A DNA stretch of 36,918 nt from an uncultured Hyphomicrobiales bacterium (GTDB taxonomy: Bacteria > Pseudomonadota > Alphaproteobacteria > Rhizobiales > Devosiaceae): positions 1 to 36,918 of the forward strand of contig CAIKKY010000016.1 in NCBI GenBank assembly GCA_903828145.1, given 5' to 3'. This document shows, one piece after another, positions 7,593 to 29,996 of the stretch. The position numbers were made by a program, and so were the translations under genes. Position 1 is the first letter of the stretch; the number at the start of each line of letters is the position of its first letter. The notes beneath the pieces are model-generated. The model did not search any database and was not told the origin of the DNA. It was given only the letters and a program-made list of their open reading frames with translations.

Positions 7593-7632
7593 GTGACAAC
7601 GGAATGAATGGCGCATGACACTAATGTTAAAG
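7593..7632 (-). promoter_or_regulatory. four-unit PhoB box upstream of transporter operon 1
   Basis: Read on the minus strand, four 7-mers are separated by exactly 4 bp: CTTTAAC, GTGTCAT, CATTCAT, TTGTCAC (4, 6, 5 and 6 of 7 matches to CTGTCAY). The 11-bp period and 40-bp total length equal those of the other arrays in the window. It lies 149 bp upstream of the binding-protein start. Of the 301-bp gap 7445-7745, it is the main feature, together with the stem-loop at 7649-7720. Confidence 0.75.
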
Positions 7633-7648
7633 AGCTTTTTGCCGCACA

Positions 7649-7720
7649 GGCCAGCAATTGCCCGGCTTCGGGACGAAGGCGCGGAACCCGGGAAAGCGCG
7701 CGCCGAAGCCCTCACTGGCC
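7649..7720 (-). terminator. nested stem-loop after ppk2, possible terminator
   Basis: Three stacked stems are visible: GGCCAG (7649-7654) with CTGGCC (7715-7720), GGCTTC (7664-7669) with GAAGCC (7705-7710), and GGCGCG (7678-7683) with CGCGCC (7699-7704). It lies 26 bp past the ppk2 stop on the transcribed strand and before the PhoB box of the next operon. There is no T-run directly after the stem. Confidence 0.35.
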
Positions 7721-7745
7721 GGGACACAAAGTGCCTGTTACCGGC

Positions 7746-8744
7746 TCAATACTTCTGCGGAACGTAGAGTTCGGGCGGCAGCACGGCGCGCTCATAGTCG
7801 GGGTTGAAGACCCGCTGCGGCAGCGCGATGTCCTCGTGCGGAATCGCCTCGTAGGGGAACAGGCTGAGGAGGTGGTCGATGCAGTTGAGCCGCGCGCGCC
7901 GCTTGTCGTTGCCTTCAACGATATACCAGGGCGCCTCGGCAATGTTGGTGCGCGCCAGCATCTCTTCCTTGGCCTTGGTGTAGTCTTCCCAGCGCACGCG
8001 GGATTGCAGGTCCATGGGCGACAGCTTCCACTGCTTCATCGGATCATGGATCCGCATCATGAAGCGCAGCTGCTGCTCTTCATCGGTGATCGAGAACCAG
8101 TATTTCACCACCGTGATGCCGGATCGCACCAGCATGCGTTCGAATTCCGGCACGTCGCGGAAAAACTGCTCGACCTTGTCTTCGTCGGCGAAGCCCATCA
8201 CGCGCTCGACACCGGCGCGGTTGTACCAGGAGCGGTCGAACAGCACGATCTCGCCGCCTGCCGGCAGGTGGGGCACATAACGCTGGAAATACCACTGCGA
8301 GCGCTCGCGGTCGGAGGGCGCGGGAAGCGCCACCACACGCACCACGCGCGGGTTGAGCCGCTGGGTGATGCGCTTGATCACGCCCCCCTTGCCGGCGCTG
8401 TCGCGCCCTTCAAACAGCACCACTACCTTCTTCTTGTGGTAGGAAACCCAGTCCTGAAGCTTGATCAGCTCCGATTGAAGCTGGAACAAGCTGGTGAAAT
8501 AGACCTTGTGGTCGATGCTGTCGGGATGCATGTCCCGGTAGAGCCGGGCGATCTCGTCGGCAAGGGCGACTTCCTCGGTAAGTTCGGCCTCTTCCTCAAG
8601 GCTGTCTGCCAGTTCGGACCGAAGCCAGTCTTGCGGGATGGCGCGGGCGGGCACAGACGAGGCAGCTGGCCGGGGAGCGGCCGCGCCGTCGCCGCCAAAA
8701 TACCGCGCGATCGAGGACAGAAGGGTTCGTGCCGAGGAAATCAT
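7746..8744 (-). CDS. ppk2: polyphosphate kinase 2 (PPK2)
   Basis: This 332-residue PPK2-family kinase transfers phosphate between polyphosphate and nucleoside di- or monophosphates. The core domain starts near residue 75. It has Walker A GRDSAGKGG (113-121), the lid region QWYFQRY and Walker B LFDRSWYNRAGVE (168-180). The residues around NRAGVERVMGF match the one-domain class I enzymes that make nucleoside triphosphates or polyphosphate. The first 40 residues are a poorly conserved alanine/proline-rich extension. A two-unit PhoB box ends 23 bp before the start codon, so it is probably induced by phosphate starvation, when polyphosphate becomes a reserve. The short spacing may mean a leaderless or nearly leaderless transcript. 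Confidence 0.93.
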   Translation of the reverse strand: MISSARTLLSSIARYFGGDGAAAPRPAASSVPARAIPQDWLRSELADSLEEEAELTEEVALADEIARLYRDMHPDSIDHKVYFTSLFQLQSELIKLQDWVSYHKKKVVVLFEGRDSAGKGGVIKRITQRLNPRVVRVVALPAPSDRERSQWYFQRYVPHLPAGGEIVLFDRSWYNRAGVERVMGFADEDKVEQFFRDVPEFERMLVRSGITVVKYWFSITDEEQQLRFMMRIHDPMKQWKLSPMDLQSRVRWEDYTKAKEEMLARTNIAEAPWYIVEGNDKRRARLNCIDHLLSLFPYEAIPHEDIALPQRVFNPDYERAVLPPELYVPQKY

Positions 8745-8766
8745 ACCGGAACTCTAGTGCCCCTCG

Positions 8767-8784
8767 GCAACAGATTCATGACAG
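8767..8784 (-). promoter_or_regulatory. PhoB box upstream of ppk2
   Basis: On the minus strand CTGTCAT (7 of 7) and CTGTTGC (5 of 7 against CTGTCAC) are spaced by GAAT, giving the standard 11-bp repeat. It lies immediately upstream of the ppk2 start at 8744. No further units are recognisable. Confidence 0.65.
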
Positions 8785-8797
8785 GGGCTGCCGCGCC

Positions 8798-9864: not shown

Positions 9865-9882
9865 GTCGCGGCAGGCGAATGG

Positions 9883-10944
9883 TCACGACGCCTCAAGCAC
9901 AAGGATATCGCTTGCCGAAAGCCGCAGCGCAGTGGTCGCCCCCACCGGCGGCGGCGGCTGATCCGGGCGGTTGAAGCTGTCAACCGAGATCAGTTGCCCG
10001 GCGACACGCGCCCGGATCCGGATGACGGAGCCGAGGAAATGCACGTCTTCGAGCACCGCAGGCAGGACGATGTCGCCGCCGGCACCCGCCCCGTGACGGA
10101 AGCTTTCGGGCCGGATGGCGAGGCGGATGCTGTCTCCCTTCTGTCCCTGGAGCTGACGCCCCAGCGGCACCGTCAGGTCGGCGATGCGGACATGTCCCCC
10201 CGTGGCATTCTCGATCACCGCCTCCAGCGTGTTGAGCGCACCCACGAAATTGGCGACGAAGGACGTGGCAGGGCGGTTATAGATGGCAAAGGGCACATCG
10301 GTCTGCTCGGCGCGGCCCTTGTTCATCACCACCACGCGGTCCGAGATGCTGAGCGCTTCTTCCTGATCGTGCGTCACGAAGAGCGTCGTGATGCCCAGCT
10401 CGCGCTGGATGGCCCGCATTTCGGTGCGAAGCGACACGCGGATCTGCGCATCGAGCGCCGAGAGCGGTTCATCGAGGAGCAGCACACGCGGCCGAGGGGC
10501 GAGCGCGCGGGCAAGCGCCACGCGCTGCTGCTGTCCGCCCGACAGCTGGAAGGGGTAGCGCCCGCCCAGGGCGTCAAGCCCGATCAGCGCCAGCATCTCG
10601 TCAACGCAAGGAGCGATCTCAGGCTTCGGCAGCCCCGCGACTTCCAGCCCGAAGCCGATATTCTGCCGCACGGTGAGGTTGGGAAAAAGCGCATAGGACT
10701 GGAACACCATGCCGATGTTCCGCTCGCGCGGGCGGAGGCCGGAAATGTCCGCGCCCGCGAGCCGGATTGCCCCGGCGCTCGGGCTTTCAAAGCCCGCCAC
10801 CATGCGAAGGATCGTCGTCTTGCCGCAGCCCGACGGACCCAGCAGCGAGATGAACTCGCCCTCGGCAATCGAGAGCGTGAAATCCTCCACCACACGGGTC
10901 GCGCCGAACGCTTTTTCGAGATGGACGAGATCGAGGTGACCCAT
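9883..10944 (-). CDS. ABC importer ATP-binding protein (transporter 2)
   Basis: This 353-residue ATPase has Walker A GPSGCGKTT, Q-loop VFQSYALFP, signature [14 protein letters not shown], Walker B VLLLDEP and LFVTHDQEEA. A C-terminal TOBE-type domain follows (residues about 240-350). It belongs to the PotA/PhnT/FbpC-like class. The ATG at 10944 shares its last base context with the permease stop (TGATG, 1-bp overlap). It is the last gene of the binding protein-permease-permease-ATPase operon preceded by a strong PhoB box, so phosphonate or phosphate-ester uptake is the favoured inference. Iron or polyamine remain possible from family membership alone. Confidence 0.9.
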   Translation of the reverse strand: MGHLDLVHLEKAFGATRVVEDFTLSIAEGEFISLLGPSGCGKTTILRMVAGFESPSAGAIRLAGADISGLRPRERNIGMVFQSYALFPNLTVRQNIGFGLEVAGLPKPEIAPCVDEMLALIGLDALGGRYPFQLSGGQQQRVALARALAPRPRVLLLDEPLSALDAQIRVSLRTEMRAIQRELGITTLFVTHDQEEALSISDRVVVMNKGRAEQTDVPFAIYNRPATSFVANFVGALNTLEAVIENATGGHVRIADLTVPLGRQLQGQKGDSIRLAIRPESFRHGAGAGGDIVLPAVLEDVHFLGSVIRIRARVAGQLISVDSFNRPDQPPPPVGATTALRLSASDILVLEAS

Positions 10945-11759
10945 CAGCGCGTCCTCCTTGTCTTTGAGAGCCTGGTCTTTGAGAGCCCGGTCGTTGAGAG
11001 CGTCGCCGCGAGTTGCAGGAGGCCCATTGCTCCCCAGGTCAGCCCGAAGGCGACCACCGCGAGGGCGGCGGGTTCATAGGCCTTGTTCGAGCCGGTCCAC
11101 ACCATGTAGGGCCCGAAAGCGGGGCGGTTCATCAGCGCGGCAAAGACATATTCGCCAATCACGATGGCAAAGGTGATGAACGCGCCCGAGAGGACCGCCA
11201 CCAGCACATTGGGCAGAATGACGCGATAGAGAATGCGCCCCCAGCCGGCCCCGAGGCTTTGCGCTGCTTCGGTCAGCGCCTTGAGGTCGAAGGCCCCGAG
11301 CCCGTTGTCAATGGCGCGGTACATGTAGGGCAGCGACAGCGTGACATAGCCGAGGCTGAGCAAGAGGTCCGTGCCCGTGGTGGAGCCGGTGAGCGGCAGC
11401 CAGCTCGACGTGTTGTAGAGCCGCAGGTACCCGAAGACGATGACGATCGGCGGGATCACGAGCGGCAGGACGGTGATGAATTCAACGACCGGACGGAAGC
11501 GCCGGAACTTGAGCCGCACCCAGAAGGCAGTCGGCACCACGATGAGGATGCCGAGAACGATGGTGACAACCGAGAGCACTGCCGAATAGGCGAGCGTGCC
11601 CAGAAACTGCGGGTCCTTCAGCACATTGGCATAGGCATCAAGGGACCAGGTGCCGCGCCGGGCGCGGAGTGAGAATTCGAACATGCCGATGAGCGGCAAG
11701 GCGAAAAACAGCACGGCGGCGATGAGGATCGCCCAGGCAAGGAGACGCCGCGCGCTCAT
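10944..11759 (-). CDS. ABC importer permease (transporter 2, second subunit)
   Basis: This 271-residue permease of the PotC-like class has an EAA loop in EAAQSLGAGWGRILYRVILP. The ATG at 11759 is chosen because it overlaps the upstream stop codon (ATGA); a second in-frame ATG lies 9 bp upstream. The C-terminus ends in a repeated, basic LSKTR motif encoded by a 15-bp tandem repeat and would face the cytoplasm. It pairs with the product of the preceding gene. Confidence 0.9.
   Translation of the reverse strand: MSARRLLAWAILIAAVLFFALPLIGMFEFSLRARRGTWSLDAYANVLKDPQFLGTLAYSAVLSVVTIVLGILIVVPTAFWVRLKFRRFRPVVEFITVLPLVIPPIVIVFGYLRLYNTSSWLPLTGSTTGTDLLLSLGYVTLSLPYMYRAIDNGLGAFDLKALTEAAQSLGAGWGRILYRVILPNVLVAVLSGAFITFAIVIGEYVFAALMNRPAFGPYMVWTGSNKAYEPAALAVVAFGLTWGAMGLLQLAATLSTTGLSKTRLSKTRRTR
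10961..11005 (-). repeat. 15-bp tandem repeat at the 3' end of the permease gene
   Basis: Three consecutive 15-bp units start at 10961, 10976 and 10991. Units one and two differ at one base, while the third diverges after ten bases. The repeat is in frame and adds copies of a five-residue LSKTR-like unit to the permease C-terminus, so its copy number can vary without disrupting the protein. Confidence 0.75.
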
Positions 11760-12649
11760 TTCGTCCACCGGTCGGCGCGGGCCCGGAGCACGATATAGAG
11801 CAGGTTCGCGATGCCGGTGACGGCGATCATCAGGCAGGCAATGGCATAGCCCAGCTGCTGCGAATTGAGCACATCGCCCCGGATCTGCGCAAAGAGCAGG
11901 ATCGGCATGAGCGAAAGGGAGGAACCGGTCAGCGCCATGGCCGTGGCGACGGCACCGAAGGCATTGGCAAAGAGCAGCGCGAACGAGCCCGCCAGCGAGG
12001 GCCAGAGCACCGGTAGCGCCACGCGGCGCCAGTAATAGGCCGTGGTCGCGCCAAGGCTTTCGGCTGCCTCCGCCCAGTCGGTCCGGAGCCCGTCAATGGC
12101 GGGGGTGATGATGAGCACCATCAGCGGGATCTGGAAATAGAGATAGACCAGCACCAGCCCCGAGAGGGTGATGAGGTTGAAACCCGCACCATAGAGATCG
12201 ATGCCGATCGCCTTGAGCAGCACCGTGACAAAGCCGAGCCGCCCGAGCGTGGCGATGAAGGCAAAAGCAAGCGGCACCCCGGCAAATTGCGAGGCAACAC
12301 CGGAAAAGGTGAGGAGCGCCGAGCGGATAAAGCCCGGCAGGCCGCCGCGCACCACGGCGAGTGCCAGCGCCAGACCGAGCGCCAGCCCGAGCCCGGCAGT
12401 GAGAAGGCTCACCTCGAGCGAGAGCGTGAACGCCTTGATGATGTTGGGGGTGAAAAGTCCCGCCATATAGTCAAGCGTCAGCCCACCGTCCGTCGCGCGG
12501 AACGCGCCGATAACGATATGGGCCGTGGGGTAGAGCAGGAACAGCACCGCAAACGCCATGAACGGCACGAGCCCCAGCCAGTCAAGAGCGGCGCGGCGGG
12601 GCTGTTTCCGGTTTTCGGGCAGGAGGCTGGTCTCGGTGATGTCAGCCAC
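11756..12649 (-). CDS. ABC importer permease (transporter 2, first subunit)
   Basis: This 297-residue permease of the PotB/CysU-like class has a first transmembrane segment at about 28-50 and an EAA loop in EAAESLGATTAYYWRRVALP. It starts at GTG 12649 with GAGG about 8 bp upstream, and its stop overlaps the next permease start. It follows the binding-protein gene after a 115-bp spacer that holds two stable hairpins, which may lower its expression relative to the binding protein. Confidence 0.88.
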   Translation of the reverse strand: MADITETSLLPENRKQPRRAALDWLGLVPFMAFAVLFLLYPTAHIVIGAFRATDGGLTLDYMAGLFTPNIIKAFTLSLEVSLLTAGLGLALGLALALAVVRGGLPGFIRSALLTFSGVASQFAGVPLAFAFIATLGRLGFVTVLLKAIGIDLYGAGFNLITLSGLVLVYLYFQIPLMVLIITPAIDGLRTDWAEAAESLGATTAYYWRRVALPVLWPSLAGSFALLFANAFGAVATAMALTGSSLSLMPILLFAQIRGDVLNSQQLGYAIACLMIAVTGIANLLYIVLRARADRWTK

Positions 12650-12764: not shown

Positions 12765-13874
12765 TTACTGGACGTTGGCGCCCACGACGCTGTCCCACCC
12801 GCCGGTCACGGCCGCCTTGTTGGCTTCCTGGTCGGCAACGGTCGGGAACACGGCCTTCGCATAGGCTTCGGCCGGGGGCAGCTTGGCGAGAACGTCGGCC
12901 GGGATCTTGCCCGCGGCGCTCATCGCGTTGAAGCGCGCCGGGTGGCAATAGCCCTTGAGCCAGCCGAGCTGGCCTTCGTCCGAATAGAGGTATTCCATCC
13001 AGAGCTTGGCCGCATTCGGGTGCGGGGCATAAGCCGAGATCGCCTGCACATACACACCGGCGAGCGAGGCGGAGGACGGGATCACCACTTCCATCGGCGG
13101 GTTGCCGGCAAGGCTGTCGCGCCAGGCGAGGAGGTTGTAGTCCCAGGCCGCGATGATCGGGGTCTGGCCCTGGGCGAGCGTGCCCGACTTGCCGGTGACC
13201 GGCACGAAGTTCCCGGCCTTGTTGAGCTCGGCGAAGAATTCGAGGCCCTTTTCGCCCGACTCGGTGCCCGGCTTCGCACCCTTCGACATGCCTGCCGACA
13301 TGAGGGCGAGGATGGCCTGGTTCGAGACGCGCGGATCACCCGTGAGCGCCACGGCGTTCTTGTACTCGGCCTTGAGCAGGTCGGCCCAGTCGGTCGGCAG
13401 CGTCTTGATGATGTCGGTGTTGATGCCGAACGCCATCACGCCATAATAATCGGCGTACCAGTGGCCATCGGCATCCTTCACGTCGGCCGGGATCTCGTCC
13501 CAGGTCGAGACCTTGTACGGCTGGAGCAGGCCTTCAGCCTGCGCCTGCGGGCCGAAAGCGAGACCAACGTCGATCACGTCCGGTGCCTGCGGGCCCTTGT
13601 TGTCCTTGTTGGCGCGGATGGCTTCGAGCTCGTCGCCCGAACCGGCATCCGGGTTCAGCTCGTTCACGGTGATCCCGGCATACTTGGCCTTGAAGCCGTC
13701 AATCACGGCACCATAGCCGCACCAGTCATGCGGCAGCGCGATGACGGTGAGCTGGCCCTCGGCCTTGGCGGCCTCGTACAGCGCGTTGAGGTCGGTCTGG
13801 GCGAAAACGGTGGTCGCGGACATCGCGAGGACGCTGACCGAAGCGGCAGCGCGGATCACGGTCTTCAGGTTCAT
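12765..13874 (-). CDS. periplasmic solute-binding protein (transporter 2)
   Basis: This 369-residue solute-binding protein of the PotD/AfuA-like type has a Sec signal of about 24 residues ending in TTVFAQ. The mature part begins near TDLNALYEAAKAEGQL, a common opening of Fe3+- and 2-aminoethylphosphonate-type binding proteins. The ATG at 13874 is preferred to the GTG at 13880 because AGGAG is 7 bp before the ATG and only 1 bp before the GTG. It heads a four-gene importer operon. The strong PhoB box 51 bp upstream implies induction under phosphate limitation, so a phosphonate or phosphate ester is the likely ligand; the exact ligand cannot be read from the sequence. Confidence 0.85.
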   Translation of the reverse strand: MNLKTVIRAAASVSVLAMSATTVFAQTDLNALYEAAKAEGQLTVIALPHDWCGYGAVIDGFKAKYAGITVNELNPDAGSGDELEAIRANKDNKGPQAPDVIDVGLAFGPQAQAEGLLQPYKVSTWDEIPADVKDADGHWYADYYGVMAFGINTDIIKTLPTDWADLLKAEYKNAVALTGDPRVSNQAILALMSAGMSKGAKPGTESGEKGLEFFAELNKAGNFVPVTGKSGTLAQGQTPIIAAWDYNLLAWRDSLAGNPPMEVVIPSSASLAGVYVQAISAYAPHPNAAKLWMEYLYSDEGQLGWLKGYCHPARFNAMSAAGKIPADVLAKLPPAEAYAKAVFPTVADQEANKAAVTGGWDSVVGANVQ

Positions 13875-13924
13875 GTTCACTCTCCTGGGGTGGGTCGGCC
13901 GTTGAGCACGACAGGGTGCTGGTT

Positions 13925-13964
13925 AGGAGAGGCGCATGTCAGTCCAGTGACAGTTTCGTCACGG
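13925..13964 (-). promoter_or_regulatory. four-unit PhoB box upstream of transporter operon 2
   Basis: Minus-strand half-sites CCGTGAC, CTGTCAC, CTGACAT and CTCTCCT follow each other at a strict 11-bp period (5, 7, 6 and 5 of 7). The central pair matches 13 of 14 positions, among the best in the window. It lies 51 bp before the binding-protein start and 48 bp from the oppositely oriented array of the phoB-like gene. Confidence 0.85.
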
Positions 13965-14011
13965 TTTTATTTCAGCTCAACCTGATAAGGGCCGGTCAAC
14001 ATGGTCATGGG

Positions 14012-14051
14012 CTGTTATTTTTCTGTCACGTTACAGTCACAGAGGTGTCAC
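14012..14051 (+). promoter_or_regulatory. four-unit PhoB box upstream of the phoB-like gene
   Basis: Plus-strand half-sites CTGTTAT, CTGTCAC, CAGTCAC and GTGTCAC have 4-bp spacers TTTT, GTTA and AGAG (6, 7, 6 and 6 of 7). The array ends 67 bp before the phoB-like ATG, which implies that the regulator activates its own gene. Confidence 0.87.
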
Positions 14052-14118
14052 CTGTGCCTTTTACTGCTGCGGCGAGGGTCGGCGAGTCCGGCCGCGTGCG
14101 CCACATGTGGAGAGGGCC

Positions 14119-14814
14119 ATGGCTGCCACGATATTGGTGGTGGAGGACGATCCGGACCTGGCCCAGATCGTGCGCTACAATCTTGAGGCCGAGGGATTTG
14201 CCGTCACCACGCTCAGCGATGGTGCCGCTGCCGACACGCTGGTCGGCGCCATCCGGCCGGACCTTGTCCTGCTTGATCTCATGTTGCCCAATGTTTCGGG
14301 GCTCGAGCTTTGCCGCCGCTGGCGCCAGCGCCCCGAGCTTCTCGACATGCGCATCATCATGGTGACGGCCAAATCCGACACCGGGGACCGCGTCGCGGGG
14401 CTTGAAACCGGTGCCGATGATTACGTGCCCAAGCCGTTTTCAGTTCCGGAACTGGTCGCCCGGGTGAAGGCGCAACTGCGCCGCGCGCAACCGGACCTGC
14501 CGCGCGGGCGCGTCGTCGCCGGGGACATCGAGCTCGATCCCGCGAGCCACCGCGTGCGCCGGGGCGGGCGGGAGCTCCATCTCGGCCCCACCGAGTTCCG
14601 CATGCTCGAACATTTTCTTGCCAATCTGGGCCGTGTCGTCTCGCGCCACCAGCTGATTGCAGGGGTCTGGCCGCGACGTCCCGATATCGATGCGCGCACC
14701 GTTGACGTACATGTGGGGCGGCTCCGGAAGGCGCTGAATGCCGGGCGCACGCAGGACCCGATCCAGACCGTTCGCGGCATCGGCTACCGGATGGACCCGG
14801 TCCCGCCAAAGTGA
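14119..14814 (+). CDS. phoB: PhoB-like (OmpR family) response regulator
   Basis: This 231-residue regulator has an N-terminal receiver domain with the acidic pair D10-D11, phospho-acceptor D53 (LVLLDLMLP), T83 and K105 (YVPKPF). The C-terminal winged helix, LGPTEFRMLEHFLANLGRVVSRHQLI followed by RTVDVHVGRLRKAL (a contiguous family-typical region, residues about 160-205), matches PhoB closely. ATG 14119 is chosen over an in-frame GTG 12 bp upstream because GGAGAG lies before it. PhoB is phosphorylated when phosphate is scarce and binds tandem 11-bp repeats, which flank this gene on both sides. No phoR or pst-phoU operon is in the window, so it may be a second, island-borne PhoB that uses a histidine kinase encoded elsewhere. 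Confidence 0.88.
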   Translation: MAATILVVEDDPDLAQIVRYNLEAEGFAVTTLSDGAAADTLVGAIRPDLVLLDLMLPNVSGLELCRRWRQRPELLDMRIIMVTAKSDTGDRVAGLETGADDYVPKPFSVPELVARVKAQLRRAQPDLPRGRVVAGDIELDPASHRVRRGGRELHLGPTEFRMLEHFLANLGRVVSRHQLIAGVWPRRPDIDARTVDVHVGRLRKALNAGRTQDPIQTVRGIGYRMDPVPPK

Positions 14815-14899: not shown

Positions 14900-15169
14900 A
14901 TGTCGAAACCGTCGACTGCCGACATTCGCCGCACGCTCTCGACCGTAATCACGCCGGGCATGACCCCCAAACAGCTGTTGAAGACGACGCTCAAGGCGCA
15001 TCCCTCCGCCAAGAAGAAGGACATCATCCACGCCGCTTTTGGCGCGATGATCGAGCTGGCGGAAACCGAGCCGGAAAAAGCCCGGCAGCTTCAGGATTTC
15101 GCGCTTTCCAACCGGGCCCCGGACGATAGCGAGTTCGTGCCGGATCACTCAGCCTCGGCGGACGCCTGA
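14900..15169 (+). CDS. small protein of unknown function
   Basis: I do not recognise this 89-residue protein. It has a basic, lysine-rich middle (about residues 20-45), a predicted helical segment IIHAAFGAMIELAE, and an acidic, proline-containing C-terminus. There is no signal peptide or membrane span and no cysteine. AGGAGACC before the ATG is a good ribosome-binding site, and codon use looks like that of its neighbours. It follows the phoB-like gene by 85 bp, with a candidate PhoB box between them, and its last 25 bp overlap the convergent phnN gene. Size and charge would suit a small regulatory or adaptor protein of the Pho response, which is only a guess. Confidence 0.7.
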   Translation: MSKPSTADIRRTLSTVITPGMTPKQLLKTTLKAHPSAKKKDIIHAAFGAMIELAETEPEKARQLQDFALSNRAPDDSEFVPDHSASADA

Positions 15170-15729
15170 CGGAGGGCCCGGAGCGCGCCGACCAGCGCGC
15201 CCTGCGCCTGCGCGATCTCGCCGGAATTGTCGATGCGCGTCACCGCAATGCCGGTCGGCAGCGGGCGCACCGCCCGAAGAAGCCGGTCGCGGATTTCGGC
15301 CTCGGTTTCGCGGCCACGCGCGGCAAGCCTCGCGGCAATCACCTCGGGCCGCGCCTCAATGCTGATGATGTGCAGCGTCGGAAACCCGGGCTCGGCCGCG
15401 CCGATCGCATCGCGCGACCCGTTGACGACAACGATCCGACCCTGAGCGAGGGCGGTGCGTATGGCCGCCGGAATGCCATATTCCAGCCCATGCGCCTGCC
15501 AGGTCAGCGCGAAGGCGCCTTGCGCCTTCTGTGCCGCGAATTCAGGGGCCGTGAGGCTGTCGAAATCCTCGGTCTCGGGACTTGGTGGGCGGGTAATCGC
15601 CCGCCGGGGAAAGACAAATCCCGGATCATCGGCGAGCGCCTCGCGCGCGGCGCGGAGCAGCGTGTCTTTCCCGACACCCGAGGGCCCAACGACAAAGACC
15701 AGCCGTCCGTCGCTCACCGGTCGCGCCAT
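15145..15729 (-). CDS. phnN: ribose 1,5-bisphosphate phosphokinase PhnN
   Basis: This 194-residue guanylate-kinase-like enzyme phosphorylates ribose 1,5-bisphosphate to PRPP, the last step of C-P lyase carbon salvage. Walker A GPSGVGKDT spans residues 15-23. The RRAITRPPSPETEDFDSL segment and QAHGLEYGIP match the PhnN/GMP-kinase substrate region. The ATG at 15729 overlaps the phnM stop codon (TGATG); longer in-frame upstream starts lie inside phnM. It is the third gene of the DUF1045-phnM-phnN operon. Confidence 0.92.
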   Translation of the reverse strand: MARPVSDGRLVFVVGPSGVGKDTLLRAAREALADDPGFVFPRRAITRPPSPETEDFDSLTAPEFAAQKAQGAFALTWQAHGLEYGIPAAIRTALAQGRIVVVNGSRDAIGAAEPGFPTLHIISIEARPEVIAARLAARGRETEAEIRDRLLRAVRPLPTGIAVTRIDNSGEIAQAQGALVGALRALRQASAEAE

Positions 15730-17600: not shown

Positions 17601-17618
17601 GTGACGCTCCAGTGACGG
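17601..17618 (-). promoter_or_regulatory. two-unit PhoB box upstream of the DUF1045-phnM-phnN operon
   Basis: On the minus strand CCGTCAC and GCGTCAC (6 and 5 of 7) are spaced by TGGA. It lies 55 bp before the DUF1045 start and only 13 bp from the oppositely directed array of the phn operon, so PhoB would activate both divergent units. Confidence 0.65.
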
Positions 17619-17631: not shown

Positions 17632-17671
17632 GCGTTACCAAACCGTCATGAAGCTGCAACAGCCGTGTCAC
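17632..17671 (+). promoter_or_regulatory. four-unit PhoB box upstream of the TIM-barrel/phnG-L operon
   Basis: Plus-strand units GCGTTAC, CCGTCAT, CTGCAAC and GTGTCAC follow a strict 11-bp period with 4-bp spacers (4, 6, 5 and 6 of 7). It ends 54 bp before the ATG at 17726. Confidence 0.78.
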
Positions 17672-19688: not shown

Positions 19689-19690
19689 GC

Positions 19691-22415: not shown

Positions 22416-22416
22416 C

Positions 22417-23130
22417 ATGGCCGCGACCCTTCCGAGCCTCAGCCTTTCCGGCGTGTCGAAGAGCTTCACCATGCATTTGCAGGGCGGCATCGTGCTGCCC
22501 GTGGTGCGCAATGTCGGCTTCGAGGTACACCCGGGCGAATGCGCCGTGCTGAGCGGCCCTTCGGGCGTCGGCAAATCCTCGCTGCTCAAGATGGCGTATG
22601 GCAATTATGCCGTGGAAGCGGGCGCGATCCGCATCCGGCATCTGGGCGAGATGGTCGATATCGCCACCGCGAGCCCGCGCACCATTCTTGAGGTGCGCCG
22701 CGATAGCCTCGGCTATGTGACGCAGTTCCTCCGGGTCGTGCCGCGCGTCTCGGCGCTCGATGTGGTGGCGGAGCCGCTGGTTGCCCGCGGAACCGAGGTT
22801 GAAACTGCCCGCGCGCGGTCCCGCGATCTCCTCGCCCGGCTCAACCTGCCGGAACGGCTGTGGAGCCTGCCGCCCGCCACCTTTTCGGGCGGCGAACAGC
22901 AGCGCGTGAACATTGCACGCGGCTTCATCACCGACCATCCGGTGCTGCTGCTCGATGAGCCCACCGCCTCGCTCGATGCGCGCAACCGGCAGGTGGTGAT
23001 CGACATGATCGGGGAGAAAAAGGCCGCCGGGGTTGCCCTGCTCGGCATTTTCCACGACGAGGACGTGCGCGACCGTGTGGCTGACCGGCTCATCGACGTC
23101 GCCCTCTTTGCCCCGGAGAAAGCCGCATGA
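22417..23130 (+). CDS. phnL: C-P lyase ABC-type ATPase PhnL
   Basis: This 237-residue ATPase is required with PhnGHI for the nucleosidase reaction. It has Walker A GPSGVGKSSLL, signature FSGGEQQRVNIARGF and Walker B LLLDEPTASLD, and the PhnL-typical YVTQFLRVVPRVSAL segment. The H-loop reads FHDEDVRD. No membrane partner is encoded beside it, as expected for PhnL. Its stop overlaps the next start by 4 bp. Confidence 0.95.
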   Translation: MAATLPSLSLSGVSKSFTMHLQGGIVLPVVRNVGFEVHPGECAVLSGPSGVGKSSLLKMAYGNYAVEAGAIRIRHLGEMVDIATASPRTILEVRRDSLGYVTQFLRVVPRVSALDVVAEPLVARGTEVETARARSRDLLARLNLPERLWSLPPATFSGGEQQRVNIARGFITDHPVLLLDEPTASLDARNRQVVIDMIGEKKAAGVALLGIFHDEDVRDRVADRLIDVALFAPEKAA

Positions 23131-23741
23131 CCCGGCTTGGCGAGACCCCCTTCATCGACTCCACCGCCGAAGTGACCCACAGCACGCTGGGCCGTTTTGT
23201 TGAGGTCGGCCCGCGCTGTGTGGTGTCGCGCTCGACCCTCGGCGATTATTCCTATTGCTGCGAGGGCACCCAGATCGCCTATGCCGATATTGGCAAGTTC
23301 GCCAATATTGCGGCCCATGCCCGCATCTATGCGAGCCGCCACCCGATGGACCGCGCCTCGCTCCACCACTTCACCTACCGCTCCGCCTGGTATTTCGAGG
23401 GCGAGACCGACGACGAGGCTTTCTTCGAGTGGCGCGCCGAACAGCGCATCACCATCGGCCATGATACCTGGGTCGGCCATGGTTCCGTCATCATGCCGGG
23501 CGTGACCATCGGCACCGGGGCGGTGATTGGCTCCAATGCTGTGGTGACCAAGGACGTGCCGGATTTCGCCATTGCCGTCGGCGTCCCGGCGAAAGTGGTG
23601 AAATACCGCTTCCCCGAGCCGATCCGCGACCGGCTGCTGGCGCTTTGCTGGTGGGACTGGCCGCATGACCGGCTCCACGACGCGTTGGCCGATTTCCGCA
23701 GTCTTTCCATCGATGCTTTCCTCGAAAAGCACGGCGCCTGA
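23127..23741 (+). CDS. phosphonate-operon hexapeptide-repeat acetyltransferase
   Basis: This 204-residue left-handed beta-helix transferase is of the kind often found in C-P lyase operons of alphaproteobacteria. Isoleucine-patch hexapeptides are visible at residues of about 8-60 and in [30 protein letters not shown], with the chloramphenicol/DapH-type [10 protein letters not shown] loop. Related enzymes use acetyl-CoA. E. coli uses an unrelated acetyltransferase, PhnO, on aminoalkylphosphonates, so this protein may acetylate aminophosphonates before or after uptake. That function is inferred. It is the last gene of the operon, and a PhoB box for phnC follows 12 bp after its stop. Confidence 0.88.
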
Positions 23742-23753: not shown

Positions 23754-23782
23754 CTGTCACGGAACTTTCACCCAAGCGTCAC
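23754..23782 (+). promoter_or_regulatory. three-unit PhoB box upstream of phnC
   Basis: Half-sites CTGTCAC, CTTTCAC and GCGTCAC have spacers GGAA and CCAA (7, 6 and 5 of 7). The array ends 56 bp before the phnC start at 23839, so phnCDE-M2 has its own PhoB-activated promoter. Confidence 0.82.
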
Positions 23783-23838
23783 CTGAGTTTCGCGTCGGCA
23801 TCCTATCCCGTCTCTCCGTGAACAGGCGGGAGATGCCG

Positions 23839-24732
23839 ATGCTGAAGATTACCGGGTTGAGCCGACGTTTCGGCAGCAAGCTGGCCGTCGACAATGTGTC
23901 GCTCGAGATTGCGCCGGGCCAGATGGTCGGCGTCATCGGTCGCTCCGGGGCGGGAAAATCCACCCTTCTGCGCATGATCAACCGCCTCGTCGAGCCCTCG
24001 GAGGGCTCCATTGCCTTCTCCGGATGTGATGTCACTGGCCTGACGGGTGCCGCGCTGCGGGACTGGCGCTCCGATTGCGCCATGATTTTTCAGCAGTTCA
24101 ACCTCGTGCCGCGGCTCGATGTCCTGACCAATGTGCTGCTTGGGCGGCTCAACAGGCGCAACAGGTTGCTGAGCCTGCTCCAGGTATTTACCGAGATGGA
24201 GCAGTTGCTGGCGCTCCAGGCGCTGGAAAGGCTGGATATTGCCCAGACAGCCACGCAATGGGCGGAGACACTTTCGGGTGGCCAGCAGCAGCGCGTTGCG
24301 ATCGCGCGTGCGCTGATGCAGCAGCCCAAGATGATTCTGGCAGATGAGCCGATTGCCTCGCTCGATCCGCGCAATTCAAAAATCGTGATGGACTCGCTGG
24401 CGGCCATTAACCGCGACAAGGGCATTACGGTCATCACCAACCTGCACACGCTGGATACGGCGCGAAAATATTGCAGCCGCATCATTGGAATGTCCGCGGG
24501 CCGGGTGGTCTTTGATGGTCGTCCCGATGAACTGACCGAAACGGCGACCCGGCATATCTACGGCGCGGGCCACGGCGACGAAGACTTTTCGGAAGGGTCG
24601 ACCTCCATGGGGCTCGACCTGATCGGCGCAGACCGACCCGTCGCTGGCCCGATGTCGCGCGCCGCCGGGGCGGTTCCCACACATTCGTCAGGCCGTCCGG
24701 CGCCTGTCCTGACGAAAAGTGCCTCACTCTGA
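23839..24732 (+). CDS. phnC: phosphonate ABC importer ATPase PhnC
   Basis: This 297-residue ATPase energises the PhnD-PhnE phosphonate importer. Walker [10 protein letters not shown] (34-42), signature [14 protein letters not shown] (145-158), Walker B MILADEP and the NLHTLD switch region are intact. The second of two nearby ATGs (23839) is preferred because GGGAG is 6 bp before it. Unusually, a tail of about 54 residues (244-297), rich in G, S, P and A, follows the normal PhnC end, giving a protein about 35 residues longer than E. coli PhnC. The tail has no recognised domain. Confidence 0.93.
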
Positions 24733-24756
24733 CAGGCGTTGACCTAGGAGCTTAAC

Positions 24757-25668
24757 ATGAACGCATTTCGCGCGATGCTGCTGGCTGGCTTTTCGCTTGC
24801 GGCAATCTCCGTCCCCGCTTTCGCCCAGGATGCGGATGTGATCCGTATCGGCCTGCTTGGCGGTGAAAACGAGGCCGACCGTCTCGCCGACAATCAGTGC
24901 CTGATCGACAAGCTTCCCGCCGCTTTGGGCGTGAAGGAAGTCAAGCTGTTCCCGGCCGCCGATTATGACGGTGTGGTGCAGGGGCTGCTCGGCGGCACGC
25001 TCGACATCGCCGGGCTTGGTGCGTCGGCCTTCGCAAAAGTCTTCATCGCTGATCCGGCAGCCGTAGAGCCTTTTGTCACCACGGTCCAGACCGATGGCTC
25101 GACGGGGTACTACTCGATCGCGCTGGCCCGCAAGGACTCCGGTATCGCCACCATCACCGATGCCAAGGGCAAGCGTCTCGGTTACGCCGATCCGGACTCG
25201 ACTTCCGGGTACCTCGTTCCGCTGACGTCGTTGCCGACCACGCTTGGTGCCAAGCCCGATGAGTTTTTCGCCTCCACCGACTTCGGCGGCGGTCACGAAA
25301 ACCTTGTGTTGGCGCTCCTCGACGACAAGTTCGATGTCGTGACCACCTGGGGCTCGGGCGTCGGTGAATTTTCCGAAGGCTATACGTCCGGCAACATCCG
25401 CTCGATGGTCGACAAAGGCATGCTCGACATGGAAGACGTCGTGGAAGTGTGGCGTTCGCCGCTGATCCCGAACGGTCCGACGGTGATGCGCTCGGGGCTC
25501 TCGGCGGAGATGAAGGCGAAGATCGTGAAGTTCTTCACCGAGCTCCCGACCACCGATTACGAGTGCTTCCGCTCCATCGAGAACGGCGACTTCAAGGGGT
25601 ACACCCCGGTGAACGTGGAATTCTACATGCCGATCATTGACGCGCGCCGCGCGACCATCGGCGGCTGA
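24757..25668 (+). CDS. phnD: phosphonate-binding protein PhnD
   Basis: This 303-residue periplasmic binding protein has a Sec signal of about 23 residues ending in PAFA before QDADVIRIG. PhnD-family motifs are VIRIGLLGGENEADR, FPAADYDGVVQGLLGG (positions about 67-82), GYADPDSTSGYLVP and the FGGGHEN loop that binds the phosphonate group. AGGAG 7 bp before the ATG supports the start. A strong hairpin after the gene probably keeps its message more abundant than that of phnE1. Confidence 0.94.
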   Translation: MNAFRAMLLAGFSLAAISVPAFAQDADVIRIGLLGGENEADRLADNQCLIDKLPAALGVKEVKLFPAADYDGVVQGLLGGTLDIAGLGASAFAKVFIADPAAVEPFVTTVQTDGSTGYYSIALARKDSGIATITDAKGKRLGYADPDSTSGYLVPLTSLPTTLGAKPDEFFASTDFGGGHENLVLALLDDKFDVVTTWGSGVGEFSEGYTSGNIRSMVDKGMLDMEDVVEVWRSPLIPNGPTVMRSGLSAEMKAKIVKFFTELPTTDYECFRSIENGDFKGYTPVNVEFYMPIIDARRATIGG

Positions 25669-25680
25669 GTTCATGAAACA

Positions 25681-25705
25681 GAAGCGGCAGGTTTCCTGCC
25701 GCTTC
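25681..25705 (+). terminator. strong hairpin between phnD and phnE1 (attenuator)
   Basis: GAAGCGGCAGG (25681-25691) pairs perfectly with CCTGCCGCTTC (25695-25705) around a TTT loop, and pyrimidines (TTCCTCTTT) follow. It resembles an intrinsic terminator with a weak T-tract, suited to partial termination so that PhnD exceeds the permeases. Confidence 0.75.
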
Positions 25706-25727
25706 TTCCTCTTTGCGAGGCGGAACC

Positions 25728-26687
25728 ATGGCGATGACCGGGCATGACGGCCTGACTGAAATGGGGCGTGCCGTGCACGCGCATTACCGCACTCTGGTGC
25801 GGCAAAGGCGGCTCTATTCGCTCCTCGCGGGGCTTACCCTGGTTGTGCTCGTCCTCGGCGCTCTGGTTTTTGCAGATGCCAGCAATGCCGGCCGTTTTTT
25901 TGATCGTCTGCCGTATTTCTTCGACTATTTCGTACATTTCCGTCCCGACGACGCCATGGAAGTAGTGCGCGCGCTGCTGGACCTGCCGTCGCCCTATGCC
26001 GACGGCTCCTTCAAATATGATTACGAAGAAGGTCGCGTTTATCTGGCCGCGGGATTTTACATTCCGGAATACATTTTCCAGATGGGCGTAACCATCAACA
26101 TTGCACTGCTATCGACATTGGCGGGGTTCTTGCTCGCGGTGCCGCTGTCGTTTCTGGCGGCAAGCAACGTCATCCGGTCTCGCCTCTCCCGCGGGCTTGT
26201 TCGCCGCATCCTGGAGTTATTGCGGGCCTTTCCCGAAATCGTCATCGCCGGCATGCTGGTGGCCATCCTGTCCATCGGCCCCATCGCGGCCATTGTAGCC
26301 GTCGCGGTTCACACCGCCGGGGCGCTGGGGAAGCTGTTTTTCGAAGTCATCGAGAATGCCGACATGCGCCCGGACGAAGGTCTGCGGGCCGCCGGGGCAA
26401 ATGGCATCGAGCGGGTCGTTTTCGGCCTCATGCCGCAGGTGCTGCCGAACTTCGTCTCCTACGCCCTGTTGCGCGCCGAGGTGAATGTCCGGGCATCAAC
26501 GATTATCGGGGCCGTGGGCGGTGGCGGCATCGGCGAAATTTTCCGTCTCTCGATCGGGCGGGACCATGCTGCCAAGACCTTTGCGATCATCATCCTGCTG
26601 CTGGTCACGATCATCGCGATCGACTGGATGTCGGGGCGGTTGCGCCGCCGCCTGATCGGTCAGGCCGCCTTCGGAGTTGCGCAATGA
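25728..26687 (+). CDS. phnE: phosphonate ABC importer permease PhnE (subunit 1)
   Basis: This 319-residue inner-membrane permease has a first transmembrane helix at about 32-55, then a periplasmic stretch, then five or so further helices. The EAA-type loop reads DEGLRAAGANGIERVVFGLMP, and IIGAVGGGGIGEI is typical of PhnE. ATG 25728 is chosen because GAGGCGG precedes it; an in-frame TTG 15 bp upstream is less likely. It overlaps the next permease by 4 bp, and the two form a heterodimer. Confidence 0.92.
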   Translation: MAMTGHDGLTEMGRAVHAHYRTLVRQRRLYSLLAGLTLVVLVLGALVFADASNAGRFFDRLPYFFDYFVHFRPDDAMEVVRALLDLPSPYADGSFKYDYEEGRVYLAAGFYIPEYIFQMGVTINIALLSTLAGFLLAVPLSFLAASNVIRSRLSRGLVRRILELLRAFPEIVIAGMLVAILSIGPIAAIVAVAVHTAGALGKLFFEVIENADMRPDEGLRAAGANGIERVVFGLMPQVLPNFVSYALLRAEVNVRASTIIGAVGGGGIGEIFRLSIGRDHAAKTFAIIILLLVTIIAIDWMSGRLRRRLIGQAAFGVAQ

Positions 26688-28054
26688 GGCACCCGAAGAT
26701 GACACCGGTGCTGGGCGGCGAAGAGCTCGCTCGACTGAGGACGTCTCATGGACGGCTGCTGCGCGACAGGCGACGCCGGCGCATCGTCCCGCTGCTCGGT
26801 GCCGTTCTTGCCGTAATTTACCTGATCTTTTGTTGGTCTTTCTTCAATTTTCCCGGGGCTTTGGGCAGCGCTCAATGGGACCGGGCCGGAAATTACGTCG
26901 CAGACTGGTACTCCTGGGAGGCTAGTCCGCGGTTCCGTTTCGGGGAGGACCGGATCGCGGTCGAGTGGACCCGTTCTCTTCTCGGGGACAACCCCGACCC
27001 CGACTGGATCCGGCAGACAGGCTCCGGCGGGTACACCGTACTGTTTTCCGACCGGAGCAGGATCGAGATTGAACGCGGACGCGTCCGGGTTCACCTCGAT
27101 GGCGTCAGTTACCTTGTTGAAATCACATCCCAGGGCGCCCTCCTGCCGGAAGGTGCCCCTCCTGCCATGGCGCTGAAGTCCGGTCGTGTCACGGTCGATT
27201 TCGGCTTTGCCGGTCTCGCCGAGATTCGAAGCTCGCAAGTCTATGTGCGGAAGCGCTTCCTGGGGTGGCCAAACTTTTTCTTCGATACCCGTTCGCCCTT
27301 CTTCGGCATGGACCCGGGCGAGCTCTGGGAGGCCGCACGTTCGACCGATCGCCTCGACCCGCGGATGCCGAACTGGCAGCTGCTGTTCGCCGAGTTTTTC
27401 TACAACAGCGAATGGCAGCATCTCGACGTGATGGCGAAGCTGCTCCAGACAATCGTGATGGCGTTTGTCGGCACGCTGTTTGCCGCTCTTGTCGCCTTTC
27501 CGCTCTGCGTCCTCGCCGCCGGGAACATCACCCGCAACCGGTTGACGAATTGGCTGATCAAGCGCTGTTTCGACCTGCTCCGGTCCATCGACATGCTGAT
27601 CTGGGCCCTGTTTTTCGTACGCGGATTTGGCCCGGGGCCGATCCCGGGCATTGCTGCCATTTTCTTCACGGATACCGGCACTCTCGGCAAAACCGGCACC
27701 GAGGCGCTCGAAAACATCGATGACAAGCCTCGGGAAGGCATGCAGTCGGTTGGGGCTTCCCCGGCCAATGTGCAGCGTTTCGGTGTTGTCCCCCAGGTGT
27801 TGCCGGTCTTTCTGGGGCAGGTTCTCTACTTCTGGGAAAGCAACACCCGCTCGGCAACAATCATCGGCGCCGTTGGTGCGGGCGGGATCGGTCTGAAGCT
27901 CATCGAGGCCATGCGCACCAACCAAGACTGGGAAAATGTCGCCTACATGGTGCTGCTCATCCTGGTGGTGGTCTACGTCTTTGATACGGCTTCCGCGAAG
28001 CTGCGCGCCCGCTTGACTGGTGCCCCTTCTGAACGCGAGGAGCCTGCACGTTGA
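26684..28054 (+). CDS. phnE: phosphonate ABC importer permease PhnE (subunit 2, long form)
   Basis: This 456-residue permease has a helix at about 37-58, then about 190 residues of mostly soluble sequence (60-250) before the transport core. The core contains the EAA-type loop REGMQSVGASPANVQRFGVVP and IIGAVGAGGIGL. The soluble insert is periplasmic by topology and rich in charged and aromatic residues, including short beta-like segments. Long PhnE2 forms are known from rhizobia, and the role of the insert is not known to me. Its stop overlaps the TTG start of the second phnM. Confidence 0.9.
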   Translation: MRHPKMTPVLGGEELARLRTSHGRLLRDRRRRRIVPLLGAVLAVIYLIFCWSFFNFPGALGSAQWDRAGNYVADWYSWEASPRFRFGEDRIAVEWTRSLLGDNPDPDWIRQTGSGGYTVLFSDRSRIEIERGRVRVHLDGVSYLVEITSQGALLPEGAPPAMALKSGRVTVDFGFAGLAEIRSSQVYVRKRFLGWPNFFFDTRSPFFGMDPGELWEAARSTDRLDPRMPNWQLLFAEFFYNSEWQHLDVMAKLLQTIVMAFVGTLFAALVAFPLCVLAAGNITRNRLTNWLIKRCFDLLRSIDMLIWALFFVRGFGPGPIPGIAAIFFTDTGTLGKTGTEALENIDDKPREGMQSVGASPANVQRFGVVPQVLPVFLGQVLYFWESNTRSATIIGAVGAGGIGLKLIEAMRTNQDWENVAYMVLLILVVVYVFDTASAKLRARLTGAPSEREEPAR

Positions 28055-29181
28055 CCCTGCCAAGGATGCTGCTCACCAATGCCCGTGTCGTGCTTGCCGA
28101 CCAGGTGATCTATGGCGCCGTTGAAGTGGTGGACGGCATCATTGCCCGCATCGGCGAGCCGACTGCCGCCGGCAAGGACATGGGGGGCGATTACCTCCTC
28201 CCGGGGCTGGTTGAACTCCATACCGACCACCTCGAAGTCCATTATGCCCCCCGTCCCGGCGTCCGCTGGAGCCCCTTTGGGGCGCTTCTCGCCCATGATG
28301 CGCAGGTGGCAGGCGCGGGAATCACCACCGTGCTCGATGCCCTCCGCATCGGGCTGACCCACGAGGACCAGGTGACGCGTGAGGATGTGCAGGCCCTTGG
28401 CCGGGCCATTCACGAGGCATCAGATGCTGATGCGCTTCGCGCCGAGCACTACATTCACCTTCGTTGCGAGGTGCCGGTGCCCGATTGCCTTGCGCAATAT
28501 GCCGATTTCGCAGACGACACGAAGGTGCGGGTCGCCTCGCTGATGGACCATTCGCCGGGCCAGCGGCAGTTTCCGTCGCTGGAAGCCTACAGGGCCTATT
28601 ACCAGAAGAAAAAGCGCATGACCGATGCCGAGTTCGAATCCTATGCCTCGGCCCGCATCGCCGATTCCCGTAGATACGCGGCAGGCCATCGCGCTGCCAT
28701 TGCCCTTCGCGGCCGTGAGCAGGGCGTGGTGCTTGCGAGCCATGACGATGCGACCGAAGCCCATGTCGCCGATGCGCGTGCCCATGGCGTCCATGTCGCC
28801 GAATTCCCGACCACTCTTGAAGCCGCCCGCGCCTCGCGCGACGCGGGCATGAAGATACTGATGGGCGGCCCCAATGTGGTCCGCAACGGCTCCCACAATG
28901 GCAACATTTCCGCGCGCGATCTCGCCGCCGAAGGGCTGCTTGACATTCTCTCGTCCGATTATGTCCCGATGAGCCTGATGCAGGCGGCCTTCGCGCTTGA
29001 GGGCGAGATTGGCCTGCCCGCAGCTGTGGGGCTGGTCACCCGCCAGCCCGCCCGAGCCGCCGGTTTTGCCGATCGCGGGGAAATCGCCGAGGGGCTCCGC
29101 GCCGATCTCGTCCGGGTGCGGGCTGAGGGGCCCGTGCCGGTGGTCCGGGCCGTCTGGCGTGAAGGGCGACGGGTGGCATAA
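28051..29181 (+). CDS. phnM: RPnTP diphosphatase PhnM (copy 2)
   Basis: This 376-residue PhnM paralogue is similar to the copy at 15.7 kb but clearly diverged. It has ELHTDHLEVHY, HLRCEVP, SLMDHSPG, SHDDATEAH and LSSDYVP, so the metal site is intact. The TTG start at 28051 overlaps the phnE2 stop and follows GAGGAG at 8 bp; an ATG at 28066 is the alternative. In many alphaproteobacteria phnM ends the phnCDE operon, so this copy is in its usual place and the one beside phnN is the extra copy. Confidence 0.93.
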   Translation: MTLPRMLLTNARVVLADQVIYGAVEVVDGIIARIGEPTAAGKDMGGDYLLPGLVELHTDHLEVHYAPRPGVRWSPFGALLAHDAQVAGAGITTVLDALRIGLTHEDQVTREDVQALGRAIHEASDADALRAEHYIHLRCEVPVPDCLAQYADFADDTKVRVASLMDHSPGQRQFPSLEAYRAYYQKKKRMTDAEFESYASARIADSRRYAAGHRAAIALRGREQGVVLASHDDATEAHVADARAHGVHVAEFPTTLEAARASRDAGMKILMGGPNVVRNGSHNGNISARDLAAEGLLDILSSDYVPMSLMQAAFALEGEIGLPAAVGLVTRQPARAAGFADRGEIAEGLRADLVRVRAEGPVPVVRAVWREGRRVA

Positions 29182-29213
29182 GCACTCTTGGGGCGCTGAG
29201 CGGAAATGGCGGC

Positions 29214-29945
29214 ATGAAATTTCTTCCTCATCAGGTCATTGCTCATCGCGGGGCGTCGGCACACGCGCCTGAAAACACGCTGGCGGCCTTTCGCCGGGCG
29301 CGGGAGCTCGGCGCCCACTGGGTGGAGCTTGATGTCTCGCTTTCGGCCGATGATGTGCCGGTGATCGTGCATGATGACACGCTCGACCGCACGACGTCTC
29401 TTGCTGGTCCGGTGCGGTCGGCGACAGCGGCGCAGCTCGCCGCCGCCGATGCGGGTAGCTGGTTTCACCCCGATTTTGCGGGTGAACCGGTGCCGACCCT
29501 CGCCGCCGCATTCGCGCTCTTTGCCAAGATCGGGCTGTCGGTCAATGTGGAGATCAAGCCTGTCGCCACTGCTGCCGAGCGCATGGCGCTCTGCGAGGCC
29601 GTCCGCGCCGCGCTCGATATGCGGCCTTCTGGCGTCGATGTCGTCATCTCGAGCTTTGATCCGGAAGCGCTGGTGCTGATGCGCGCGTTGTCCGGCCCCG
29701 AACCGCTGGCGCTTCTGCTCGATAACCTGCCCCAAAACTGGCCCGCGCTGGTTGAAAGAACCGGCGCCAGCGCCGTGCACCTGGATATGGCCCTCCTCAT
29801 AGCCGATGTGCTGGCGCAGATGAATGCCGCAGGGCTCAAGGTCCGCGTCTGGACCTGCAACGATCCGGCGCGGCTCGTCCCATTCTGGCCGCTTGGCCTT
29901 GATGCCGTGATTACCGACGACCCGTCACTGTTCCTTGGCCTCTAG
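29214..29945 (+). CDS. ugpQ: glycerophosphodiester phosphodiesterase (UgpQ-like)
   Basis: This 243-residue cytoplasmic GDPD has the canonical HRG (H11-R12-G13) followed by APENTLAAF, E38-x-D40 in WVELDVS, H53 in IVHDDTLDRTT, VEIKP and a C-terminal VWTCNDP and DAVITDDP. It hydrolyses glycerophosphodiesters to glycerol 3-phosphate. It starts 32 bp after phnM2 with no promoter visible between, so it is probably co-transcribed with the phosphonate importer. It is about 35 residues shorter than the GDPD at 2.7 kb and closer to UgpQ. Confidence 0.9.
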   Translation: MKFLPHQVIAHRGASAHAPENTLAAFRRARELGAHWVELDVSLSADDVPVIVHDDTLDRTTSLAGPVRSATAAQLAAADAGSWFHPDFAGEPVPTLAAAFALFAKIGLSVNVEIKPVATAAERMALCEAVRAALDMRPSGVDVVISSFDPEALVLMRALSGPEPLALLLDNLPQNWPALVERTGASAVHLDMALLIADVLAQMNAAGLKVRVWTCNDPARLVPFWPLGLDAVITDDPSLFLGL

Positions 29946-29956
29946 GCAAAAGCGCT

Positions 29957-29996
29957 TAGTCACAAAAGCTTCATCCGGCTGTCATGCAGCCGTTAT
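29957..29996 (+). promoter_or_regulatory. four-unit PhoB box upstream of pstS
   Basis: Plus-strand units TAGTCAC, GCTTCAT, CTGTCAT and CCGTTAT are separated by exactly 4 bp each (5, 4, 7 and 5 of 7), again 40 bp in total. It begins 11 bp after the ugpQ stop and ends 69 bp before the pstS ATG. Confidence 0.82.

Follow-up and report, generated by a model that had tools for sequence, protein, structure and literature searches.

Do the phosphorus genes gathered on a single contig of an uncultured Hyphomicrobiales bacterium (Devosiaceae) stand under the control of PhoB, and is the repeated four-unit form of their putative operators peculiar to this island? The window, i.e., the whole stretch of DNA analyzed (36,918 nucleotides; contig CAIKKY010000016.1 of assembly GCA_903828145.1), is one entire contig (C16) of a draft genome of 2.95 Mb, 98.3% complete and in 32 contigs, and makes up 1.25% of that genome. 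Profile searches revealed the gene content of a classical Pho regulon, with eight gene groups each carrying a Pho-box array. The original prediction of a compact Pho regulon with correctly oriented Pho boxes was backed by this gene content, by the spacing to the −10 element, and by conservation in relatives, and the arrays are very probably PhoB-dependent Pho operators.

Eight arrays of CTGTCAY-like 7-mers with 4-bp spacers had been predicted, and all were present at the predicted coordinates. Each contains at least two such 7-mers in direct repeat at an 11-bp pitch. The match to CTGTCAY was better on the strand of the downstream gene in 8/8 arrays, in agreement with the claim that each array points in the direction of its operon. 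The arrays, scored with a generic CTGTCAY matrix that was not trained on the window, are listed below; the spacer is counted from the last, gene-proximal unit to the TA of the putative −10 element.

7593..7632, (−): four-slot array of the ATP-binding cassette (ABC) operon 7444–2709; 30.0 bits; 0/2000 shuffles; spacer 12, TA at base 13
8767..8784, (−): two-slot box of ppk2; 14.0 bits; 0/2000 shuffles; spacer 10, then TAGAGT
13936..13975, (−): four-slot array of the phnS-like ABC operon; 27.3 bits; spacer 10, then TAACCA; two-slot core kept in relatives
14012..14051, (+): four-slot array of the island phoB paralogue; 34.3 bits, the maximum of the window; spacer 10, then TACTGC
17601..17618, (−): two-slot box of the TIGR03223-type gene, phnM, and phnN; spacer 10, then TATGTC; score reached by 55/2000 shuffles
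17632..17671, (+): four-slot array of the TIM-barrel/phnGHIJKL operon; 21.0 bits; spacer 10, then TACCCG
23754..23793, (+): four-slot array of phnCDEE; 23.5 bits; slot 1 degenerate; spacer 10, then TATCCC
29957..29996, (+): four-slot array of pstS; 25.6 bits; spacer 11, then TATTCC

The register of two arrays was corrected. The predicted four-unit array at 13925–13964 exists, but its register was one unit out: on the (−) strand this placement scores 24.4 bits vs 27.3 bits for 13936–13975, and the unit dropped from the earlier register overlaps the −10 element. The units of the predicted three-unit array at 23754–23782 were also found, but the count of three did not stand, the array having four slots (23754–23793) with a degenerate promoter-proximal slot 1 (1.1 bits). 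The description of the longer arrays as four units each needs the qualification that some units are weak, such as those of 2.5 and 3.2 bits in the array at 17632. A further two-unit match (14842–14859, (−)) is located just past the phoB paralogue and is aimed back into the gene, with no TA within 45 bases.

The arrays occupy the place of a −35 element, approximately 10 bases before the −10 element, exactly in 6/8 cases and off by one or two bases in 2/8. A TA was found at base 11 after the last unit in five of the eight arrays (8767, 13936, 14012, 17601, and 17632); in the others it was found at base 22 (phnC), 12 (pstS), and 13 (the array at 7593). The TA at position 22 of phnC suggests a skipped slot, i.e., the four-slot array 23754–23793. 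With the degenerate phnC slot counted, the TA stands ten bases past the last slot in 6/8 arrays. At the TA rate of 0.0202 per position measured in the upstream regions of relatives, the binomial P was 1.8e-7 for five arrays and 1.1e-7 for six.

A spacing of 10 bases to the −10 element is also that of the phoA promoter of Escherichia coli. At E. coli phoA, the PhoB sites overlap the −35 position (PMC3348028). E. coli Pho boxes consist of 7-bp units with 4-bp spacers and the consensus CTGTCAT (PMC4415409), and the window arrays share this unit length, spacer, and consensus, whereas they depart from the usual two-unit definition of the E. coli box in that many of them have four slots and that the phnC array has a degenerate slot 1. 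Rhizobial Pho boxes (Sinorhizobium meliloti and Rhizobium leguminosarum) are likewise described as a pair of 7-nt repeats that resemble CTGTCAT and stand 4 nt apart, and the rosR promoter carries three Pho-box-like motifs at separate places, unlike the single phased ladder of the window (PMC3131613).

The density of the arrays was compared with a background of 34 stretches sampled from this genome, 680 kb in total, and with genome-wide matches to the two-unit pattern; six further stretches (L009–L014), picked for pattern hits or for the phoB gene on contig C6, were kept out of the 680 kb. The prediction that the arrays stand out from other DNA held against this background and, for seven arrays, against shuffled sequence. 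At a threshold of 16 bits, the matrix scan yielded six distinct four-unit arrays (21.0–34.3 bits) in the 36.9-kb window vs none in the 680 kb, and for 7/8 arrays the observed score was reached by none of the dinucleotide shuffles (2000 per promoter region). The two-unit pattern with up to three mismatches occurred 224 and 233 times on the respective genome strands vs 171 and 146 times for the reversed control. With up to one mismatch, 11 places were found, four of them in the window (P 7.5e-6); counted as distinct arrays, three of nine were in the window (P 1.5e-4).

Arrays were also found in the stretches set apart. The second pstS, on contig C7 (L010), has an upstream array of 32.0 bits with TA at 23, and the C6 gene run ending in the canonical phoB (L009) has a three-unit array, scoring 15.6 bits when taken over four slots and with its TA at 22, before its first frame, which is pstC-like by layout only. 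Stretch L012 contained two matches of 16.2 and 20.3 bits, the latter A+T-rich, and L011, L013, and L014 contained no four-unit match of at least 15 bits.

To examine conservation, 138 upstream regions from genomes of the family (51 phnS-like, 29 pstS, 29 TIM/phnG, and 29 phnC) were collected from the best loci among the matches listed, plus 40 phnS-like promoters taken by coordinate. A two-unit core of at least 12 bits was present in 96/138 promoters; counted from the best core, TA stood 11 bases on in 65 of these, 22 bases on in 11, and 33 bases on in 36 (one promoter may count at several offsets). The phnS-like promoters had TA at 11 in 45/51. The pstS promoters were anchored by three units, since at the junction CAT-AAAAC the last unit itself contributes a TA; leaving out promoters with a three-unit score below 12 (1/29 for pstS and 2/29 for phnC), TA stood at 22 in 26/28 pstS and 26/27 phnC promoters, the latter at the position seen in the phnC promoter of the window.

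Slot use was determined in promoters with a core of at least 12 bits and a phased TA (50/51 phnS-like and 20/29 phnC), in which the anchoring core necessarily counts as two filled slots, whereas the remaining slots are free to be empty. Slots 1–4 were filled (at least 4 bits) in 100, 98, 30, and 22% of 50 relatives for the phnS-like promoters and in 20, 95, 90, and 90% of 20 relatives for phnC, while out-of-phase slots at the same four positions were filled in 0–1%. The form usual in the family has four slots, the first of them weak, at pstS and phnC and two slots at phnS-like promoters. The long array at the phnS-like operon of the window is more lineage-specific: its four-slot total was reached by 1/50 relatives and its slots 3 and 4 by 4/50, the core of the relatives being two units.

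These results do not support the four-unit form as a novelty of the island, since four slots are usual at pstS and phnC in the family and multi-repeat Pho operators are already on record. Pho boxes made up of 11-bp repeats, also several to a promoter, are established, and multiple or complex operators have been recorded at E. coli ugp and in Streptomyces coelicolor (PMC4415409). The window promoters resemble these in having more than two units of variable number and quality; the Streptomyces operators have another consensus, and a fixed 40-bp layout such as that of the window is not mentioned in the available part of that source. The Pho regulon of the window is a good but ordinary one, with a four-slot form that is family-wide at two promoters and not island-specific. 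The arrays amount to a conserved ruler of 11-bp slots counted back from the −10 element, by which Pho promoters of this group can be called by geometry besides consensus. The four slots with a weak first one at pstS and phnC vs the two slots at phnS-like promoters predict differences in induction.

In the mechanism that we propose, the two to four slots form a ladder in which each 11-bp unit would take up one phosphorylated PhoB-type protein, with neighbours arranged head to tail; the cooperative, graded binding originally suggested is a hypothesis. As the gene-proximal slot ends ten bases before the −10 element, PhoB would occupy the −35 position and, under phosphate scarcity, recruit RNA polymerase with the housekeeping sigma factor. 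Phosphonate uptake, carbon–phosphorus lyase, and a 2-aminoethylphosphonate-like transporter would be switched on, together with the second ABC operon, pstS, polyphosphate kinase 2, and the island copy of phoB.

According to profile searches, the genes behind the arrays belong to phosphorus acquisition; the matches of pstS, the phnS-like protein, the TIGR03223-type gene, and the window PhoB are below the curated cut-offs. The genes are as follows.

6302..7444, (−): ABC substrate-binding protein
5438..6298, 3542..5224, and 2709..3545, (−): rest of the ABC operon 7444–2709, namely permease, ATPase, and GDPD-like protein, respectively
7746..8744, (−): polyphosphate kinase 2 (ppk2), TIGR03707 above cut-off
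12765..13880, (−): phnS-like substrate-binding protein, match under the curated cut-off
11756..12649, 10944..11768, and 9883..10944, (−): rest of the phnS-like operon, namely two permeases and the ATPase, respectively
14107..14814, (+): island PhoB paralogue, 235 aa, by profile search and alignment
15145..17545, (−): TIGR03223-type phn protein (below cut-off), phnM, and phnN, with a candidate ATG start at 17545
17726..23741, (+): TIM-barrel protein, phnG, phnH, phnI, phnJ, phnK, phnL, and hexapeptide transferase
23836..29945, (+): phnC, phnD, phnE, phnE, a second phnM, and a glycerophosphodiester phosphodiesterase-like protein
30066..31088, (+): PstS-family protein, TIGR02136, below cut-off
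33540..35982: ars-like cluster located past pstS and a phytase-like gene, with an ArsR-type regulator, a low-molecular-weight-phosphatase-type protein, an ArsC-type protein, a MIP channel, and a GFA protein

The product of the TIGR03223-type gene is also called the DUF1045 protein. The window pstS (30066–31088) is 87% identical to the second pstS on C7 (C7:13765–14781). The C6 gene run ending in the canonical phoB had no pstS match, and in relatives such as G098 pstS lies a few kb from phoB. In the ABC ATPase (3542–5224, (−)), profile matches begin at approximately residue 214, and the preceding ~210 residues are possibly a fused permease. A possible small reading frame on the (+) strand starts at 14901, between the phoB paralogue and phnN.

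The island PhoB paralogue (14107–14814) is the part of the window that merits follow-up; that it is a divergent second copy was not part of the original prediction. The canonical PhoB on C6 scored 350.7 bits to TIGR02154, and the island paralogue scored 281.5 bits, below the curated cut-off of 296.2; the two proteins are about 61–62% identical. An orthologue was sought in 136 genomes of the family (its own included), 397 genomes of the order (its own and 20 of the family included), genome contigs (a pattern-seeded search confined to close relatives, best 80), and plasmids (best 5000 records). No hit listed exceeded 62% identity, which was that of the C6 copy of its own genome, and all of the best 5000 plasmid records were below 60% identity. 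The nearest named PhoB proteins among the best 80 matches were those of Salinarimonas, Methylobacterium, and their kin. The protein was aligned with a non-random comparison set, rich in Methylobacterium, of 86 of the 87 scanned loci, each with at least 230 bits to the island PhoB in tblastn. The island PhoB differed at 31/141 near-invariant columns and had a terminal branch of 0.68; the next highest row differed at 16 columns and the C6 copy at none, and terminal branches elsewhere were at most 0.27.

The receiver core and phospho-acceptor residues E13, D14, D57, T87, and K109 are kept, as in 86/86 compared proteins, and the recognition helix, RTVDVHVGRLRKALN, is identical to that of the C6 copy. 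The activation (sigma-contact) loop preceding this helix is rewritten (G189P, D191R, V192P, Y193D, and E196A). W184, G185, V190, and D192 of E. coli PhoB were named as polymerase-binding by mutation (PMC3348028); in an alignment to the solved E. coli effector domain, with the numbering of that paper, the island copy keeps W184 and has P for G185, I for V190, and A for D192. A separate binding specificity of the island PhoB was considered and rejected, given the identical recognition helix. The island PhoB would bind the same arrays but may activate differently. We tentatively suggest, as a possibility on the unlikely side, that it is a natural separation-of-function form with weaker or different polymerase contact on the same arrays, competing or heterodimerizing with the canonical PhoB on long arrays and so acting as a brake or re-tuner of the regulon. 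If so, the island PhoB, driven by the strongest island array, would rise along with the Pho response. A literature search, conducted largely on listings, found no description of a PhoB copy with a changed activation loop, which does not prove absence. Repression by PhoB itself is known from the E. coli phoB promoter, which PhoB activates and also represses via a low-affinity site in the −10 region (PMC6194859). The divergent copy provides a natural case in which to ask whether the reading of DNA and the contact with polymerase can evolve apart in a response regulator.

Arsenic islands provide a precedent for a second PhoB encoded near pst, phn, and ars genes. The island of Agrobacterium tumefaciens 5A carries a second phoB with pst, phn, and ars genes, with the two regulators termed PhoB1 and PhoB2 (PMC3834237, PMC7533571). 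An island on plasmid p-3 of Ensifer adhaerens contains phnCDEE, pst genes, phoU, phoB, a second, more divergent regulator, and ars genes, along with a gene whose annotation reads arsenate reductase (azurin) large subunit. In this island, phnC and the pst operon are each preceded by a Pho-like array that has a TA 11 bases after it. The window resembles these two islands in having a second phoB near pst, phnCDEE, and ars genes. It differs from them in that no pstCAB, phoU, or phoR was found among the window genes profiled, unlike the second pst/pho set of the arsenic islands, and the activation loop (VWGHDIYVDER) is retained in the Ensifer island PhoB but not in the window PhoB. As a further difference, no aioBA arsenite oxidase gene was found among the window genes profiled, to which the search for aio was confined. 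The second regulator of the Ensifer island (p-3 stretch L310, 9703–10389) lies directly after phoB; it is PhoB-like and 46% identical to that of the window, with activation loop and helix partly changed.

Four observations weigh against reading the arrays as PhoB-dependent Pho operators. The spacers of 11 at pstS and 12 at the 7593 array deviate from 10. The box at 17601–17618 is weak by sequence alone, its score being reached by 55/2000 shuffles, and therefore rests mainly on its −10 spacing. Seven of the 11 best two-unit consensus places are outside the window, so such boxes occur elsewhere in the genome too. No phased array was found directly upstream of the orthologous TIM/phnG gene in the 29 relatives (one, L205, had an unphased two-unit match of 16.2 bits), and the window array 17632–17671 is therefore not conserved there. 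The shuffles that reach the score of the 17601 box would also fit an origin of the arrays by chance or compositional bias in A+T-rich intergenic DNA, as would the finding that, at 14 bits, the six four-unit arrays of the window are matched by four places in the 680 kb. Chance is a negligible explanation, however, in view of the six vs no arrays at 16 bits, the phasing to the −10 element, and the conservation in relatives; it was refuted by shuffles for 7/8 arrays and by conservation for three promoters.

Direct repeats of similar pitch are used by other members of the OmpR/PhoB family, and the genome has 11 full-length PhoB-profile matches, nine besides the two PhoB proteins, so that another member of this family might be considered as the regulator of these sites. 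This is highly improbable, because the CTGTCAY consensus, the Pho gene content, and the −10 spacing all fit PhoB and the arrays occur at pst and phn genes family-wide. A less remote but still doubtful explanation is that control of the island rests mainly with its own PhoB paralogue, in a separate, insulated phosphate or arsenic circuit like that of PhoB1 with longer arrays tuned to this paralogue. The location of the phoB paralogue within the island under the strongest array, the nearby pstS, phn genes, and ars-like cluster, the arsenic-island and Ensifer precedents, and the length of the phnS-like array are consistent with such a circuit. On the other hand, no separate site specificity is expected from an identical recognition helix, the same kind of arrays is found at pstS on C7 and on C6, and neither a histidine kinase nor an aio gene was found among the window genes profiled. 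Because the recognition helices are identical, sequence does not tell the C6 PhoB from the island PhoB as occupant of the sites.

The window was also examined for plasmid or foreign origin. No overlap exists between the two ends of the contig. Its GC content is 64.6%, vs 60–66% in 20 genome stretches, and the tetranucleotide correlation of its thirds is 0.92–0.94, vs 0.90–0.98 for genome stretches. The cluster at 33540–35982 resembles the ars portion of arsenic islands, and the protein encoded at the contig end (36030–36791), which carries a recombinase zinc ribbon (PF13408), is a hint of mobility. Elsewhere in the genome, C10 (~126142–132470) and C31 (~45109–51106) share an identical 18-bp Pho-like match and have similar matches in inverted order, which suggests a duplicated region.

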